From positions 45,130 through 89,345 of the forward strand of contig CADEEV010000017.1 in NCBI GenBank assembly GCA_902826455.1: a stretch of 44,216 nt of DNA, given 5' to 3'. The notes under the pieces were generated by a model. The model was given only the letters and a program-made list of their open reading frames with translations. It was not told the origin of the DNA and made no database searches. Below, in pieces: positions 1,323 to 7,117 of the stretch (position 1 is the stretch's first letter; each line of letters starts with the position of its first letter). Source of the DNA: an uncultured Acidobacteriota bacterium. Lineage in GTDB: Bacteria > Acidobacteriota > Vicinamibacteria > Fen-336. The translations under genes and the position numbers were made by a program.

Positions 1323-1679
1323 ATGAGACTGAATAGGTCCGCGCTGTCGCTCCTTCTCGTCGGCATGGCCATGCCCGCGTTCGCATCGGTCGCCGAGAAG
1401 GAAGTGCGCTTCGGCCTCGAGGTCGCGAAGAAGGGTCTCTGGCAGGAAGCCCGCTTCCGGTTCGAGAAGGCGGTGCAGCTCGAGCCCGACAACGCGAATG
1501 CCCTCAACAACCTGGGCGTCGCCTTGGAACAACAGGGCGAGTTCGAGCAGGCCCGCGCGGCGTACGAGAAGGCGCTCGCGTTGAAACCCGGCGACCTTCT
1601 GATCCAGCAGAACTACGACCTATTCCGAGAGGCTGATGACAAGCGCAACCGGAAGGCGAGGAAGCTCAAGACGCCTTAG
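1323..1679 (+). CDS. Small secreted TPR-repeat protein
   Basis: A 118-residue protein with an N-terminal signal peptide (hydrophobic residues about 7-20, ending MPAFASVA), then two to three tetratricopeptide repeats over about residues 25-100. The second repeat is clear (NALNNLGVALEQQGEFEQAR, AAYEKALALKPGD). The tail is basic. TPR proteins scaffold protein-protein contacts, and this one should act in the periplasm. It overlaps the downstream lipoprotein gene by 44 bp, so the two are probably translated together. The specific partner is unknown; the barrel fusion protein encoded at 2435 is the obvious candidate by context. The ATG at 1323 follows an AGGAG motif. Confidence 0.8.
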   Translation: MRLNRSALSLLLVGMAMPAFASVAEKEVRFGLEVAKKGLWQEARFRFEKAVQLEPDNANALNNLGVALEQQGEFEQARAAYEKALALKPGDLLIQQNYDLFREADDKRNRKARKLKTP

Positions 1680-2421
1680 CGTCCTGCTGCTCGCTGCCGC
1701 GGCCACCCTGGTGACCCACGGCTGCGCCAGCTTCGTCGAGATCCCGATCGAAACGCCGTTGCAGTCCAAGATAGACGTGTCGCGCTTCAGGCGCGTGCTC
1801 GTGGCCGGGTTCATCACCGAACCCGGGGCCTCGGACATCGAGCTCTCCTCGGAGACCTCCCGGCTCCTCCAGAACCAGCTGCGGAGCGTTTCCCGCCTGC
1901 AGGTGCTCGAGCCCGACCGCCCGCCGCTCCATGACGCCCTCGACCGCGTCAAGAGCAACCTCGCCGAGGACGATCGCTGGACGAAGGCCTCGCGGGAGAA
2001 CTTCCGCCTCGAGGCCGACAAGATCCTGACCGACGCCGAGTACTGGCGACGGCTCGGTGAGGAATACCAGAACCCGTTGATCGTCACGGGCCGGGTCTCC
2101 TTCGAGGAGCAGAGCCGCTCCGGCTTCCAGGCCGACGAGCGCGTCGTGCGCGATCCCGCCACGAGCCGGGCCCGCCTCGTGCGAGGCAACCGTTTCCTCG
2201 AGCGTAAGGCGTTTACGCTTTCCGCCGATTTCGTGTTCGTGGACGGCAAGACGGGCGAGACGCTGCACAAGGAGAAGTTCTCCGAGGAGATCCTCTACAG
2301 CGAGGATCAGAAGGTGTCGCCGCTCTCGTCCTATTTCGAGCTGATGGACCGGTTGCTGCCCAACTTCCTGGGCGTGATCGCCCCCCAGAGGATCCGGGGC
2401 ACCCGGATCCTCCTGCCCTAG
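1636..2421 (+). CDS. Predicted outer-membrane lipoprotein of unknown function
   Basis: A 261-residue protein whose hydrophobic leader ends in a lipobox (LVTHGC, lipidated Cys at residue 30) after an RR-containing n-region, so it should be a lipoprotein. The mature part begins with a segment reading RRVLVAGFITEPGAS followed by SETSRLLQNQL. This resembles the alpha/beta opening of CsgG-like and other small envelope lipoproteins that form a nucleotide-free Rossmann-like sheet; that comparison is only an impression. A later stretch (VDGKTGETLHKEKF) also fits such families. It starts inside the end of the TPR gene and ends 13 bp before the barrel fusion gene, indicating a three-gene envelope operon. 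I cannot assign a function. Confidence 0.75.
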   Translation: MTSATGRRGSSRRLSVLLLAAAATLVTHGCASFVEIPIETPLQSKIDVSRFRRVLVAGFITEPGASDIELSSETSRLLQNQLRSVSRLQVLEPDRPPLHDALDRVKSNLAEDDRWTKASRENFRLEADKILTDAEYWRRLGEEYQNPLIVTGRVSFEEQSRSGFQADERVVRDPATSRARLVRGNRFLERKAFTLSADFVFVDGKTGETLHKEKFSEEILYSEDQKVSPLSSYFELMDRLLPNFLGVIAPQRIRGTRILLP

Positions 2422-2434
2422 GGTTACTCCGACA

Positions 2435-5371
2435 ATGAAGACACGGCTGTTCGGCCTCGCCCTCCTGCTGGCCTTCCTTCCCGGTGGCAGGGCTGAAGCC
2501 CAGTTCTTCCCCTACTTCGGCAAGAACAAGGTCAAGTACGACACGTTCGCGTGGCGCGTCTACAAGAGCCCGCACTTCGAGATCTACTACTATCCCGAGT
2601 TCGAGCAGCACCTCGGGCGCATCGCCTCGTACGCCGAGAGCGGCTACCAGAAGATCTCGTCGGAGCTCAAGCACGAGATCCCCTTCTCGATCCCGCTCGT
2701 GCTGTACAAGACGCACTCGGAGTTCGAGCAGACGAACCTGATCCCGGGCTTCATCCCCGAGGCCGCCCTCGCCTTCACCGAGCCGATCCGGAACCGGATG
2801 GTGGTCCCGATCGACGAGCCTCCGGATCGCCTCCAGGGCCTCATCACCCACGAGCTCACCCACGTCTTCGAGTTCGACCTGATCCCGCGCAGCCTGTTCC
2901 AGCGGACGGTGCCCCTGTGGGTCGACGAGGGTCTCGCGGACTACCTGCGCGGAATGTGGGATCCCCTCGACGTGATGATGATCCGGGAAGGCGCCATCTC
3001 GGACCAGGTCCCGAAGATCTCGCGCAGCCAGTACGAGGCGCTGTCGGGACGCGAGGCCTACAACTACGGACACGCCGCCTTCGAGTTCATCGAAGCCCGC
3101 TACGGGAAGGAAGGCATCCGGCAGTTCCTCTACACGCTCCGCAAGAACGTGATCGGCGGCAGCCTCGACGACATCTACCTGCAGGCGTTCCGGATCAAGC
3201 CCGAGGAGTTCGACGAGGCGTACGAGAAGTGGCTCAAGGAGCGCTTCAAGCCCTATCGCGACAAGCAGCGGCCGAGCGACTACGGCAAGAACCTGTCGCC
3301 CAACCCGGACCGCACGCGCTACATCCAGGTGTTCGGCTTCGCACCGTCGCCCTCGGGCGAGATGGTCGCGGCCATCACGGGGAACCGCGCGGACGCCGAG
3401 GCCGACATCGTCCTGCTCTCGGCGAAGGACGGTACGGTCCTCAAGAACCTCACCTCGGGCTACACGAACAGCTACGAGGACATCCACATCAACATCAATT
3501 CCCAGACGATCGGCCGCTCGATCAGCTTCGACGCCAAGGGCGACACCGTGGCGTTCCTCGCGCGGCACGGCAAGGGCCGCAGCCTCTTCCAGGTCTCGGT
3601 GCTGTCCGGGGACGTGCTGAAGCGGATTCCCATCGATCTCGACCAGGCCTCGTCGCCCTGCCTGACGCCCGACGGCCGCGGCGCGCTCTTCTCGGGGATG
3701 CGCGAGGGCGTGTCCGACATCTACTTCGTGGACCTCGAGACGGGCGAGGTGCGGAACCTGACCCAGGACGCCTTCGCCGACAGCGATCCGCAGCTCTCGC
3801 CCGACGGCAGCCTCGTCGTGTACTCGCGCCGCGTCAGCGGCCACGACAAGCTGTATCTCTTCCCGCTCGCGAACCCCGCGAAGAAGATGCCGCTCACCTT
3901 CGGCATCTACGACGACGAGACCCCGGCCTTCTCCGCGGACGGCAACAAGATCTACTACGCGTCGAACGAGGACGGCGAGGTCTACAACATCCGGGTGCTC
4001 GATCTCAAGACCGGCGCCATCGACCAGTACACGGACGCCCTCGGCGGCAACATGGCCCCGTTCCCGCTGAAGGCCAGCGCCGGCGAGCGGCTCGCCTTCA
4101 TCAGCTACTTCAAGGGCGCCTTCAACCTCTACGCGAGGGACCTCGTCGAGCCGGTCCGGACCGTCGACCAGGACGTGCGCGTCACGGCCGAGGCGATCCT
4201 CGACTTCGAGCCCGACGTCACCCACCGCGTGGTTCCCGAGAACAAGCGCAAGAAGGGCCTGTTCGAGAAGCTCTATCTCGTGGGCAGGCCGCCCCTCAAC
4301 GTGGGCGTCACGTCGAGCGGCGACTTCTTCGGCGGCAGCCAGGTCGAGCTCACGGACATCCTCGGCGACCAGAACTTCACCTTCACGGCGCTGTCGATCC
4401 GCGAGTTCCGAACCTACCAGGGCAACTACCTGAACCTCGGGTCGCGCTTCCAATACGGCATCTCCGCCTTCGACCAGACGCGCTACTTCTACAGCTCGCC
4501 CTTCCAGTTCACGTCGGGATTCTCGCGCCAGGGCGCGTTCGCCACGAGTCGGGCCTACGGAGCCTCCCTCGTGGGCCAGTACCCGATCGACAAGATGCGG
4601 CGCATCGAGGTCGCGGCGGGGTTCTACAAGCTGCGGGAGCGCTACGAGAACCCCGAAGCCCAGGCTCTGGCCGAGCAGCAGGCGCGGGATGCGGGCGTCC
4701 AGTTCTATCTCAACAACGGGACCCTGCTGCCCGTTTCCTTGGCCCTGACCCAGGAGACGACGCGCTTCGCCCAGTTTGGACCCCTGACGGGGTCCACGTT
4801 CCGGGTGGCCGCCGAGACCAGCATCGGCGGCTCGCTGCGGCGCTACACGCTCGACGGCGACATGCGCAAGTACCTGCGCCTGGGCTCGACCACCACGCTG
4901 CTCGCCCTGCGCGCTCGCGGGTTCAAGTCCTTCGGCGACAACCCGGAGATCTTCTATTTCGGCGGCAACCAGGAGCTGCGGGGCTACCCCTACCTGTCCT
5001 TCGCCGGAAACGAGGGCTTCTTCGGGAACGCCGAGCTCCGGATCCCCCTGATCGACGTCGCCGCGACGCCGATCGGCCTCGTCGGGCCCCTGCGCGGTAC
5101 GGTCTTCTTCGGCGTCGGTGGCGCCAAGTACAAGGGCCAGCCGAACTACGACTTCGCGAGCAAGGACGACGGCTTGTCCTACGTGAACGACCCGGTCTTC
5201 GGCGAGCCCGTGTCGGGTTTCCACCTGGTGGACGGGCGCGCCTCGTACGGCGTCGGCCTCCAGTTCTTCTTCCTCGGCTATCCGCTGCACTTCGACTGGT
5301 CGAAGCTGACCGACCTCCAGGTCGTGTCGAAGAAGACGGAGTTCAGCTTCTGGATCGGGTTCGACTTCTAG
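2435..5371 (+). CDS. Metallopeptidase-like / TolB-type propeller / Omp85-type barrel fusion protein
   Basis: A 978-residue envelope protein with a signal peptide (cleavage after about AEA, residue 22). Residues about 35-270 form a gluzincin-like (peptidase MA-like) domain with HELTH at 139-143 and a candidate third zinc ligand Glu165 in WVDEGLADYLRG. Residues about 290-580 carry repeated WD40/PD40-type blades of the TolB kind (SPDGSLVVYSRR, FSADGNKIYYASNEDGE). Residues about 620-978 form an outer-membrane beta barrel of the bacterial surface antigen (Omp85/BamA) type, with FYFGGNQELRGYPY and a terminal aromatic residue (FWIGFDF) typical of BAM substrates. The zinc ligands are intact, so proteolysis is possible but unproven. 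Similar proteins are often annotated simply as TolB-like or BamA-like. It follows the TPR and lipoprotein genes, which may supply accessory subunits. Confidence 0.85.
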   Translation: MKTRLFGLALLLAFLPGGRAEAQFFPYFGKNKVKYDTFAWRVYKSPHFEIYYYPEFEQHLGRIASYAESGYQKISSELKHEIPFSIPLVLYKTHSEFEQTNLIPGFIPEAALAFTEPIRNRMVVPIDEPPDRLQGLITHELTHVFEFDLIPRSLFQRTVPLWVDEGLADYLRGMWDPLDVMMIREGAISDQVPKISRSQYEALSGREAYNYGHAAFEFIEARYGKEGIRQFLYTLRKNVIGGSLDDIYLQAFRIKPEEFDEAYEKWLKERFKPYRDKQRPSDYGKNLSPNPDRTRYIQVFGFAPSPSGEMVAAITGNRADAEADIVLLSAKDGTVLKNLTSGYTNSYEDIHININSQTIGRSISFDAKGDTVAFLARHGKGRSLFQVSVLSGDVLKRIPIDLDQASSPCLTPDGRGALFSGMREGVSDIYFVDLETGEVRNLTQDAFADSDPQLSPDGSLVVYSRRVSGHDKLYLFPLANPAKKMPLTFGIYDDETPAFSADGNKIYYASNEDGEVYNIRVLDLKTGAIDQYTDALGGNMAPFPLKASAGERLAFISYFKGAFNLYARDLVEPVRTVDQDVRVTAEAILDFEPDVTHRVVPENKRKKGLFEKLYLVGRPPLNVGVTSSGDFFGGSQVELTDILGDQNFTFTALSIREFRTYQGNYLNLGSRFQYGISAFDQTRYFYSSPFQFTSGFSRQGAFATSRAYGASLVGQYPIDKMRRIEVAAGFYKLRERYENPEAQALAEQQARDAGVQFYLNNGTLLPVSLALTQETTRFAQFGPLTGSTFRVAAETSIGGSLRRYTLDGDMRKYLRLGSTTTLLALRARGFKSFGDNPEIFYFGGNQELRGYPYLSFAGNEGFFGNAELRIPLIDVAATPIGLVGPLRGTVFFGVGGAKYKGQPNYDFASKDDGLSYVNDPVFGEPVSGFHLVDGRASYGVGLQFFFLGYPLHFDWSKLTDLQVVSKKTEFSFWIGFDF

Positions 5372-5404
5372 AGCGAACGGTGGCGGGTCCAAGGGGCGAG
5401 TCCG

Positions 5405-5434
5405 TTGACGGCGAAACGCCGGGCGTGCTAAAGT
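5405..5434 (+). promoter_or_regulatory. Sigma-70 promoter of rplU-rpmA
   Basis: TTGACG (5405-5410), an 18-bp spacer and an extended -10, TGC-TAAAGT (5426-5434). The spacer contains a 5-bp inverted repeat, CGGCG-AAA-CGCCG (5409-5421), that could act as an operator. A strong AAGGAGG (5459-5465) sits 8 nt before the GTG start of rplU. Confidence 0.7.
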
Positions 5435-5473
5435 CTTGCGTTTCACCGGATCTGTCGTAAGGAGGCAGGCACC

Positions 5474-5785
5474 GTGTACGCGATCGTCAAGGCCGGAGGC
5501 AAGCAATACCGGGTGGAGAAGGGCGACACGATCTATGTCGAGCTTCTCGCGACACCCGTGGGCGAAAAGGTCACCCTGGAGGACGTTCTTCTCCTTTCCG
5601 GCGAGGGCGAGACGCGCGTCGGCGCCCCCCGTATCGAGAAGGCCTCCGTCGTCGGCACGGTCGTCGAGCAGGGTCGCGACCACAAGATCCGCGTCTTCAA
5701 GTACAAGAAGCGCAAGCACTACCGGCGCACTCGGGGCCATCGCCAGTCCTACACGGCGTTGCGCATCGACGCGATCCAGGCTTAG
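5474..5785 (+). CDS. rplU: 50S ribosomal protein L21
   Basis: A 103-residue L21, the usual length. It binds 23S rRNA in the large subunit. The N-terminus YAIVKAGGKQYRVEKGD and the basic RNA-binding end (YKKRKHYRRTRGHRQ) are diagnostic. The start is GTG with a near-perfect Shine-Dalgarno 8 nt upstream. It lies 9 bp before rpmA and forms the conserved rplU-rpmA-obgE cluster, with its own promoter just upstream. Confidence 0.98.
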   Translation: MYAIVKAGGKQYRVEKGDTIYVELLATPVGEKVTLEDVLLLSGEGETRVGAPRIEKASVVGTVVEQGRDHKIRVFKYKKRKHYRRTRGHRQSYTALRIDAIQA

Positions 5786-5794
5786 GAATACAGC

Positions 5795-6055
5795 ATGGCT
5801 CACAAAAAAGGTCAGGGCTCCAGCCGCAACGGGCGCGACAGCAACTCCCAGCGCCTGGGCGTCAAGCGCTTCGGCGGCCAGGCCGTCCGGGGCGGCACCA
5901 TCCTCCTCCGTCAGCACGGCACGAAGTGGAAGCCGGGCAAGAACGTCGGACTCGCCAAGGACCACACCCTCTTCGCCCTGGTCGACGGTTTCGTCCAGTT
6001 CGAGGACAAGGGCACGCGCGGCCTGCGCGTGAGCGTCCTCCCCGCCGCGAGCTGA
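5795..6055 (+). CDS. rpmA: 50S ribosomal protein L27
   Basis: An 86-residue L27, whose N-terminus reaches toward the peptidyl-transferase centre. [16 protein letters not shown] and [15 protein letters not shown] are family hallmarks. The protein begins directly with the mature-type AHKKG sequence, without the cleaved leader known from Firmicutes. The gene is in the conserved block with rplU and obgE; its stop is followed by a strong hairpin just before obgE. Confidence 0.98.
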
Positions 6056-6062
6056 TCGACGG

Positions 6063-6084
6063 CGCCGTCCTCCTGAGGACGGCG
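6063..6084 (+). promoter_or_regulatory. Perfect hairpin covering the obgE Shine-Dalgarno
   Basis: CGCCGTCCTC (6063-6072) and GAGGACGGCG (6075-6084) are perfect 10-bp inverted arms around CT; nine pairs with a 4-nt loop are feasible. The second arm holds the only ribosome-binding-like sequence (GAGGA) before the obgE ATG at 6089. This suggests translational damping or mRNA processing between the ribosomal protein genes and obgE. No T-tract follows, so it is not a standard intrinsic terminator. Confidence 0.6.
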
Positions 6085-6088
6085 AGCC

Positions 6089-7117
6089 ATGTTCGTCGAT
6101 CGGGTCAAGATTTTCGTCAAGGCGGGTGATGGAGGCCGCGGTTGCGCGAGCTTCCGCCGCGAGTCCAAGGTTCCGCGCGGCGGCCCTGACGGCGGCAACG
6201 GAGGCCGTGGCGGCGACGTGTATCTCGTGGCCGTGTCCCACCAGAACACCCTGCTCCCGCTGAGATACCACACGGAGTGGCGTGCCGAGCGCGGCGAGCA
6301 CGGAGGCCCGTCGAACTGCACCGGCGCCGAAGGAGCCGACCTGCTGATCTCCGTTCCACCCGGAACCCTCGCGGCGCTCGACGGCTCCGAGGACTCGATC
6401 GGGGAGGTCCTCGCCGAGGGTGACCGCCTGCTCGTCGCCCGGGGCGGACGCGGCGGACGCGGCAATCGTTCGTTCCTCTCGAACTTCAACAGGGCGCCGC
6501 GAGAAGCGGAGCCCGGGGCCGAGGGCGAGGAGCACTGGCTGCGTCTCGACCTCAAGCTCCTGGCGGATGTCGGCCTCCTGGGCTTTCCCAACGCCGGCAA
6601 GTCCACTCTGCTCTCGAGGCTCTCGGCCGCCAAGCCCAAGATCGCGGACTATCCTTTCACGACGCTTTCCCCGGTCCTGGGCGTCGTGCAGGCGGGCGAG
6701 GACGAGACTTTCGTCGCCGCCGACATTCCGGGGATCATCGAGGGCGCTCATGAGGGCGCCGGGCTCGGACTGCACTTCCTGCGTCACGTCCAGCGCACCC
6801 GCGTCCTGCTCCACGTCGTGGACGCCTCCGGAACCTCCGGGCGCGACCCGGCGGCCGATCTGCGGGCGGTACGGGACGAAGTGCGGCAATGGGACGAGAC
6901 GCTCGTCGAGCGTCCGCAACTGGTGGTCGCGAGCAAGCGCGACGCCGTGGGCGAGGACGATCCGCTGGCCTCTCTCCAGGCGGAAGCGCGTCGCCTCAGC
7001 CTGGATGTCGTGCCGATCTCGGCGGTCACGGGCGCCGGGCTGCTGGACCTGAAGCGTCGCCTGTTCCGGATGGTGCAGGAAACGCGGGCCACCGTCGTGG
7101 CCGAGGGGCCGGCGTGA
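6089..7117 (+). CDS. obgE: GTPase Obg (CgtA), ribosome assembly and stress
   Basis: A 342-residue Obg GTPase that acts in 50S maturation and growth control. The glycine-rich Obg fold occupies about residues 1-160 (GGRGCASFRRE, GGNGGRGGDVYL). The G domain follows, with G1 GFPNAGKST, G3 DIPGIIEGAHEGAGLG and G4 reading SKRD (Ser282) instead of the usual NKxD. There is no C-terminal OCT domain; the protein ends shortly after the G domain, as in many Gram-negative Obg proteins. The stop overlaps the GTG start of nadD (GTGA), implying translational coupling. The rplU-rpmA-obgE order is widely conserved. Confidence 0.96.
   Translation: MFVDRVKIFVKAGDGGRGCASFRRESKVPRGGPDGGNGGRGGDVYLVAVSHQNTLLPLRYHTEWRAERGEHGGPSNCTGAEGADLLISVPPGTLAALDGSEDSIGEVLAEGDRLLVARGGRGGRGNRSFLSNFNRAPREAEPGAEGEEHWLRLDLKLLADVGLLGFPNAGKSTLLSRLSAAKPKIADYPFTTLSPVLGVVQAGEDETFVAADIPGIIEGAHEGAGLGLHFLRHVQRTRVLLHVVDASGTSGRDPAADLRAVRDEVRQWDETLVERPQLVVASKRDAVGEDDPLASLQAEARRLSLDVVPISAVTGAGLLDLKRRLFRMVQETRATVVAEGPA

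Follow-up and report, generated by a model that had tools for sequence, protein, structure and literature searches.

In known Omp85 insertases client proteins are handled by POTRA domains, which are usual but not universal, and the outer-membrane assembly machines known to us divide barrel, propeller and protease among different proteins. Omp85 subfamilies without POTRA domains exist, and Heinz and Lithgow (2014, PMC4104836) distinguished a WD40-Omp85 subfamily from Omp85 proteins said to bear a metalloprotease. In PlpD the enzyme domain is N-terminal and periplasmic, though it was once thought to be exported (PMC11116518), and BepA, a zinc peptidase with tetratricopeptide repeats (TPRs), helps or degrades LptD on the BAM complex (PMC8423444). 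Here we describe a three-gene locus from a 44,216-nucleotide (nt) stretch of DNA (the window; contig CADEEV010000017.1, positions 45,130 to 89,345) of an uncultured bacterium of the Acidobacteriota, class Vicinamibacteria. The locus encodes a small TPR protein, a lipoprotein and a 978-amino acid (aa) fusion protein in which a peptidase of the gluzincin type precedes a TolB-like propeller and an Omp85-type barrel. We propose, giving the idea an even chance of being right, that the three genes encode an accessory machine for assembly and quality control at the outer membrane.

The PF00149 family comprises metallophosphoesterases and not gluzincin peptidases. It is the family used for the "Metallo" subfamily of Omp85 proteins (PMC4104836), whereas the fusion from the window has a gluzincin domain instead. 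The definition of the WD40-Omp85 subfamily, a TolB-like propeller preceding an Omp85 barrel without POTRA domains, fits the fusion; that subfamily, however, is described with a propeller only, and the text of the article mentions neither a peptidase in the same chain nor an operon with TPR protein and lipoprotein genes (PMC4104836). The string "acidobacter" is absent from the main text of that article. PlpD, as described in PMC11116518, shares with the fusion an Omp85 barrel with an N-terminal enzyme domain, but has patatin-like and POTRA domains and no propeller. BepA, as described in PMC8423444, is also a periplasmic HExxH peptidase acting with the help of TPRs in the assembly of outer-membrane proteins, but it belongs to another peptidase family (M48), has neither barrel nor propeller, and carries its TPRs on its own chain, whereas those of the trio are on a separate protein. 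No description of a peptidase-propeller-barrel chain or of the conserved trio was found in the literature searched, with most subscription journals and all supplements falling outside the search. The combination of an Omp85 barrel with a WD40 propeller is already known; the triple fusion and the three-gene operon are apparently undescribed in the searched literature.

Domain architecture of the fusion protein

The following features were distinguished at the locus (coordinates are those of the window):

1323..1679, + strand: TPR protein gene, a conserved neighbour (118 aa; a signal peptide, then roughly two TPR repeats and a basic tail at the C-terminus)
1636..2421, + strand: lipoprotein gene (261 aa; fold of the FlgT/PelC/CsgG/LptE/TolB-N type)
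1723..1725, + strand: Cys30 of the lipoprotein, presumed lipidation site, in an atypical lipobox (THGC); Cys invariant in 13/13 aligned sequences
2435..5371, + strand: fusion gene (978 aa; peptidase, propeller and Omp85 barrel)
2507..3304, + strand: gluzincin-type metallopeptidase domain (residues ~25-290; Peptidase_MA_2 and a profile match to structure 3cia)
2849..2863, + strand: HELTH motif (residues 139-143; H139, E140 and H143 invariant in 38/38)
2927..2929, + strand: Glu165, presumed third zinc ligand (invariant in 38/38; aligned with the M1 EG glutamate)
3059..3061, + strand: Tyr209, presumed transition-state tyrosine (invariant in 38/38; aligned with the Y of M1 YxxG)
3317..4174, + strand: TolB-like beta-propeller (residues ~295-580; TolB TIGR02800, PD40 and fold match)
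4247..5368, + strand: Omp85-type barrel (residues ~605-978; by profile and fold, with no POTRA domain detected)
4976..4987, + strand: LRGY motif (residues 848-851; R849 invariant in 38/38)

In the fusion a signal peptide is followed by peptidase, propeller and barrel, and an earlier note on this DNA had read the same order of the three domains; the three open reading frames (ORFs) of that note and the 44-nt overlap of the TPR protein and lipoprotein genes were likewise reproduced. The gap between the lipoprotein and fusion genes is 13 nt. Codon GC content in the trio is 86-95% at the third position and 36-45% at the second, and near-full-length homologues of the fusion (coverage of about 90% or more) were found in 37 of 40 related genomes, its own included, with identities of 47-68% when the self match is excluded. 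The GC contents by codon position and the conservation thus rule out a chance ORF. A very long antisense ORF (2213-6919) was taken as a by-product of the high third-position GC.

Conservation was assessed on an alignment (A3) of 38 of the 55 full-length fusions (window, L038-L051 and L074-L113), of which 25 make up alignments A5 and A6. A fragment (L052) was left out of all fusion alignments, and L039 (frameshift) and L050 (no start found) were left out of alignment A2. Several of the sets of loci examined were hand-picked from match lists, not drawn at random, and one of these sets was made up of loci with an apparently missing partner or barrel, or of paralogues.

Some of the 38 aligned proteins are only 33% identical to that of the window, and just 42 columns of the alignment (start Met counted; reference of 978 residues) are invariant. 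H139, E140, H143, E165 and Y209 are all among them, which suggests that an active enzyme has been selected for. A profile built from 25 peptidase domains matched an M1 aminopeptidase of known structure (3cia; E 0.0022) with HExxH, the EG glutamate and the YxxG tyrosine in register, so that the fusion has both the HExxH motif and the downstream glutamate typical of gluzincin peptidases (clan MA). The earlier note had pointed to HELTH and to Glu165, which lies within the sequence WVDEG, as a candidate ligand; the motif was confirmed at residues 139-143, and the assignment of the glutamate is supported by its invariance and its M1 counterpart. The role of Tyr209 is assumed here by analogy with M1 peptidases. 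Peptidase_MA_2 (PF13485) itself scored 21.3 bits on the window protein, below its cut-off of 32.4, and matched at E <= 0.01 in 28/38 fusions (best 6e-10).

PD40 (Pfam) was matched in 38/38 fusions. The TolB profile TIGR02800 aligned with the propeller part only (E 4e-19, 68.9 bits; the full-length cut-off of 343.15 was not reached), and the propeller of the AlphaFold2 (AF2) model superposed on TolB propellers with a VIA Z of 27.0 over 249 residues (2.6 Å).

The barrel is of the BamA type by profile and fold and belongs by both to the Omp85 superfamily. A profile of the barrel matched structure 9ccg (E 2e-9) and BamA chains (E 1e-6), and the AF2 barrel matched BamA barrels (Foldseek E ~1e-11; VIA Z of 23.3 to a BamA model). 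The single window sequence matched BamA at E 2e-6 (26.5 bits vs. the TIGR03303 cut-off of 297.15). The Omp85 family of Pfam was detected in 6/38 full-length fusions and in 10/25 barrels taken alone, the window's own barrel not being one of these 10. Seventeen barrel columns are invariant in 25/25 barrels, the last residue of the window protein is Phe978, in agreement with the BamA-like barrel ending in Phe that had been predicted, and LRGY matches the loop-6 RGF/Y motif, which we take to be defining for Omp85. With reference to the roles of BamA, BamB, BamD and BamC, the trio's barrel, propeller, TPR protein and lipoprotein resemble the BAM complex in make-up. The fusion is nevertheless not BamA itself, since it falls short of the TIGR03303 cut-off and shares its genome with two other loci that pass it; no POTRA domain was detected in it either.

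The lipoprotein-TPR pair and inheritance of the gene set

The TPR protein is small and generic, with two TPR stretches (Pfam TPR_2, E 8e-15). The lipoprotein, 47-70% identical to its 12 aligned relatives of the class, was modelled by AF2 with a predicted local distance difference test score (pLDDT) of 81.5, and the model matched FlgT (VIA Z 13.5), PelC (11.9), LptE (9.8), TolB-N (9.5) and CsgG (9.2), with root-mean-square deviations of 2.9-3.8 Å over 130-150 residues to solved members, which places it in the CsgG/LptE/TolB-N fold. This likeness to PelC, CsgG, LptE and FlgT (Z from 13.5 to ~8) is one of fold, whereas for the window lipoprotein no Pfam match was found at E <= 0.05. Among 41 relatives FlgT_M was matched weakly in nine and LpoB weakly in one, and the lipoprotein sequence profile (L039, L105, L108 and L109 left out) gave nothing convincing against the PDB. 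At three loci (L105, L108 and L150) the TPR protein and the lipoprotein are encoded by a single ORF, which points to contact between the two proteins.

The trio is contiguous in 15/15 named loci (L038-L052; the lipoprotein frame is broken in L039), in 20/20 loci outside the class (L094-L113; for two of the lipoproteins a profile was needed) and in 12/12 further loci (L137-L144, L150-L152 and L154), i.e., in 47/47 of the loci inspected that do not belong to one particular clade. A frameshift in the lipoprotein gene of L039 (878-4624) makes its frame continue into the fusion gene, which is probably an assembly error in a metagenome contig and possibly a real change. Barrel-less fusions had been suspected from matches ending at residues 512-572, but all eight loci fetched (L137-L144) carry the barrel.

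In the other families of the class the fusion gene is located away from its partners in 20/20 loci (L074-L093). This is not a loss of the operon: the TPR-lipoprotein pair was found between dprA and rplU, its site in the window, in 14/14 fusion-bearing genomes checked (13 of which are represented in the set of 20 loci), so that one gene has been relocated. The relocated fusions, of which 8 of 20 were sampled in a tree of 48 rows, form one clade (100/100), and a single move of the fusion gene would therefore explain these loci.

Over 297 genomes, 128 encode both the fusion and the lipoprotein, 1 the fusion only, 5 the lipoprotein only and 163 neither (Fisher 6e-77). The same comparison made with LptD as a control (81/48/107/61; p 0.90) revealed no link to the fusion. 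The line between orthologues and paralogues of the fusion (E < 1e-70) was set by us, and the interval from 1e-81 to 6e-60 contains no genome. The earlier note had made its reading depend on conserved co-occurrence of the three genes, and both the contiguity of the trio and the genome counts leave it standing. Taken together, these genomic patterns support a functional link among the three genes. One genome (G231, locus L129) keeps the TPR-lipoprotein pair, and no fusion gene was found in it.

More distant relatives were also identified. A paralogue clade ~30% identical to the fusion (5/5 loci, L145-L149, of genomes G009, G024, G003, G276 and G287; 100/100) keeps HExxH and RGY, and TPR or lipoprotein partners were not found beside it in any of the five loci within the stretches fetched; 17/297 genomes gave only such weaker, paralogue-grade matches. 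Occurrence outside the phylum was sampled only lightly. The close-match scan of genome contigs yielded 15 loci, all labelled Acidobacteria, Acidobacteriota or Vicinamibacteria. A plasmid search found a 633-aa peptidase-propeller relative outside the phylum, on plasmid pSR116 of Salinibacter ruber (L130, 3908-5809); it is too short to include a barrel and is annotated as basic secretory protein-like. The scan of viral contigs gave 46 pattern matches and no relative of the fusion.

Neighbouring genes and other envelope machinery

Upstream of the trio lies a - strand frame that we take to encode DprA (the hmmscan search covered a wrong-frame ORF there). Downstream, rplU, rpmA, obgE, nadD and rsfS begin 102 nt beyond the trio, and a sigma-54 activator is also among the genes identified beside it in the window. 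This gap and a promoter-like match within it (5405-5434) indicate that the trio probably stops at position 5371.

The relocated fusion genes have neighbours of another kind, stress regulators and proteins of the periplasm, whose families were each checked on one example. Among 20 such loci, an extracytoplasmic function (ECF) sigma factor and a zinc-finger anti-sigma factor were each found in 12, a thioredoxin/redoxin-like protein (TlpA-like, by our own label) in 19, and a protein combining TPRs with a retropepsin-like protease in 18. The fusion gene is often flanked on one side by the ECF sigma, anti-sigma and thioredoxin-like genes as a divergent group, and on the other by the convergent gene of this TPR and retropepsin-like aspartyl protease (~515 aa). 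This suggests, for one clade only, a neighbourhood devoted to envelope protein handling under stress control.

Besides the two BamA-grade loci, the genome of the window (G000) encodes a full-length TolB-like protein (positions 25-418 of 418; E 2e-98; 330.3 bits vs. the cut-off of 343.15). A TolB passing that cut-off was found in 100/297 genomes and one at E <= 1e-40 in 266/297; 2 of 20 genomes listed without a TolB hit carry the fusion gene. The idea that the fusion is a plain replacement of TolB was rejected because of the separate protein in G000 and of these 266 genomes. The trio resembles TolB in the propeller of the fusion and in the TolB-N-like fold of the lipoprotein, but has the two folds on different proteins. 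Given the BamA-grade loci and the TolB-like protein in the same genome, the trio is probably an addition to machines of the BAM and TolB types. The description "self-contained", used in the earlier note, is not supported: these other machines are encoded as well, and one clade has the barrel gene elsewhere. As a separate observation, LptD (PF04453) was detected in 1/32 genomes of the class outside the window's family, and the fusion in 31/32; these 32 genomes may lack lipopolysaccharide export or have a divergent LptD.

Proposed function and significance

In the accessory assembly and quality-control machine that we propose, the barrel would sit in the outer membrane with its N-terminal extension, propeller and peptidase, facing the periplasm, a placement based on the topology of other Omp85 proteins. 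The propeller, occupying the usual position of POTRA domains, would present or recognise unfolded outer-membrane clients. The lipoprotein and the TPR protein would form a sub-complex that docks on the fusion as an adaptor and helps to choose clients, and the peptidase would trim or destroy those that stall. Help with assembly and proteolysis would thereby be united in one chain, much like the action of BepA on the BAM complex, except that here the tether would be covalent. Topology, complex formation, clients and the direction of proteolysis are what we infer here; the observations counted in support are the invariant catalytic residues, the BamA-like barrel with R849, the contiguity and co-occurrence of the genes, the one-ORF pairs, the neighbours of the relocated genes, and the precedents of BepA and PlpD. 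That the TPR protein and the lipoprotein are partners of the fusion, as the earlier note had it, stands as far as the functional link goes, and genetic evidence is what suggests a physical partnership; its label of "sensor" for the propeller found no support. A bolder version, which we consider rather unlikely, would make the trio a second assembly machine without POTRA domains, in which a TolB-type propeller and a gluzincin peptidase stand in place of the client arm of a BamA-like barrel, a lipoprotein-TPR adaptor feeds it, and the decision to insert or to cut is taken within one protein; the whole would be old in Acidobacteriota and retained across much of the phylum.

Several points weigh against the proposed role. 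No POTRA domain was among the 16 families matched by the 38 fusions, and the stretch between propeller and barrel measures ~40 residues. The residues following the loop-6 Arg vary (RGY in 8/12 sequences compared; RGV, RSI or RGD in the other four), and the AF2 model of the fusion is weak (pLDDT 64.7, predicted template modelling score 0.38; pLDDT <50 at residues 145-158, within the presumed zinc-binding region). Some other lineages have a lipoprotein counterpart with no apparent lipobox Cys, so that membrane anchoring of this partner is not general. The Fisher tests on the 297 genomes, including the value of 6e-77, take no account of common descent, and the TPR gene was scored at individual loci and not genome-wide. 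In L120 (genome G284) the TPR-lipoprotein pair precedes rplU, dprA is absent there, and no fusion gene was detected; for this genome, as for G231, loss or an assembly gap is possible. Of the neighbours typical of the relocated genes, a scan of 34 other loci gave a single weak sigma hit, in L043.

Four other explanations can be set against the same data. The Omp85 barrel might serve to export a small number of substrates, of which the lipoprotein could be one, with the peptidase processing them en route, as in two-partner secretion with a built-in enzyme. A single-substrate exporter would account for the tight gene set, and a weak ShlB/FhaC match was found in 4/25 barrels (best E 2e-4). Secretion substrates, however, usually vary quickly, whereas the lipoprotein is well conserved across its 12 class relatives (47-70%), and its occasional occurrence as one ORF with the TPR protein, or without a lipobox, fits a fixed periplasmic part; we regard such a secretion and maturation system as unlikely. 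Less likely again is a link between outer membrane and cell wall of the Tol-Pal kind, in which the propeller and the TolB-N-like lipoprotein would be a split TolB, the TPR protein would act as CpoB, and the peptidase would remodel envelope proteins at division. TolB is indeed the nearest relative of the propeller (Z 27), TolB-N is among the fold matches of the lipoprotein (Z 9.5), LpoB is matched, albeit weakly, in 1/41 relatives, the TolB-like protein of G000 lies just under its cut-off, passed in 100/297 genomes, and the fusion occurs in 2/20 of the TolB-less genomes listed. Yet that TolB-like protein is full-length, 266/297 genomes have one at E <= 1e-40, and the lipoprotein fold is a common one, with TolB-N ranking below FlgT and PelC among its many matches.

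We give a low and equal probability to the remaining two. One is a device that exports or inserts polysaccharide or lipid in the manner of PelB-PelC or LptD-LptE, its barrel gated by the TPR protein and by the lipoprotein acting as a ring or plug. In its favour are the PelC/LptE/CsgG fold of the lipoprotein (Z 11.9 for PelC and 9.8 for LptE) and the example of PelB, in which TPRs and a barrel occur together. Such a device offers no ready explanation for an invariant protease, the fusion is distributed independently of LptD (p 0.90; 31/32 class genomes outside the window's family with the fusion vs. 1/32 with LptD), and the neighbours in the window (DprA-like, rplU, rpmA, obgE, nadD, rsfS and the sigma-54 activator) are not polysaccharide genes. 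Alternatively, the barrel could be a mere anchor for a nutritional protease at the cell surface or in the periplasm, with the TPR protein and the lipoprotein as maturation factors. The Salinibacter relative shows that the front half can stand alone, and the barrel-bearing paralogue does without nearby partners in 5/5 loci; but 17 columns invariant in 25/25 barrels are, in our judgement, more than an anchor requires, and co-inheritance with the lipoprotein in 128 genomes is unlike a nutritional protease.

The fusion joins barrel, propeller and protease in one catalytically conserved chain that is inherited with its partners over much of the phylum. If the trio is an accessory assembly and quality-control machine, it would offer a natural system of fixed stoichiometry for studying the choice between assembling and destroying outer-membrane proteins, and would assign a role in the envelope to a gene set conserved in the Acidobacteriota, an abundant and poorly understood soil phylum.

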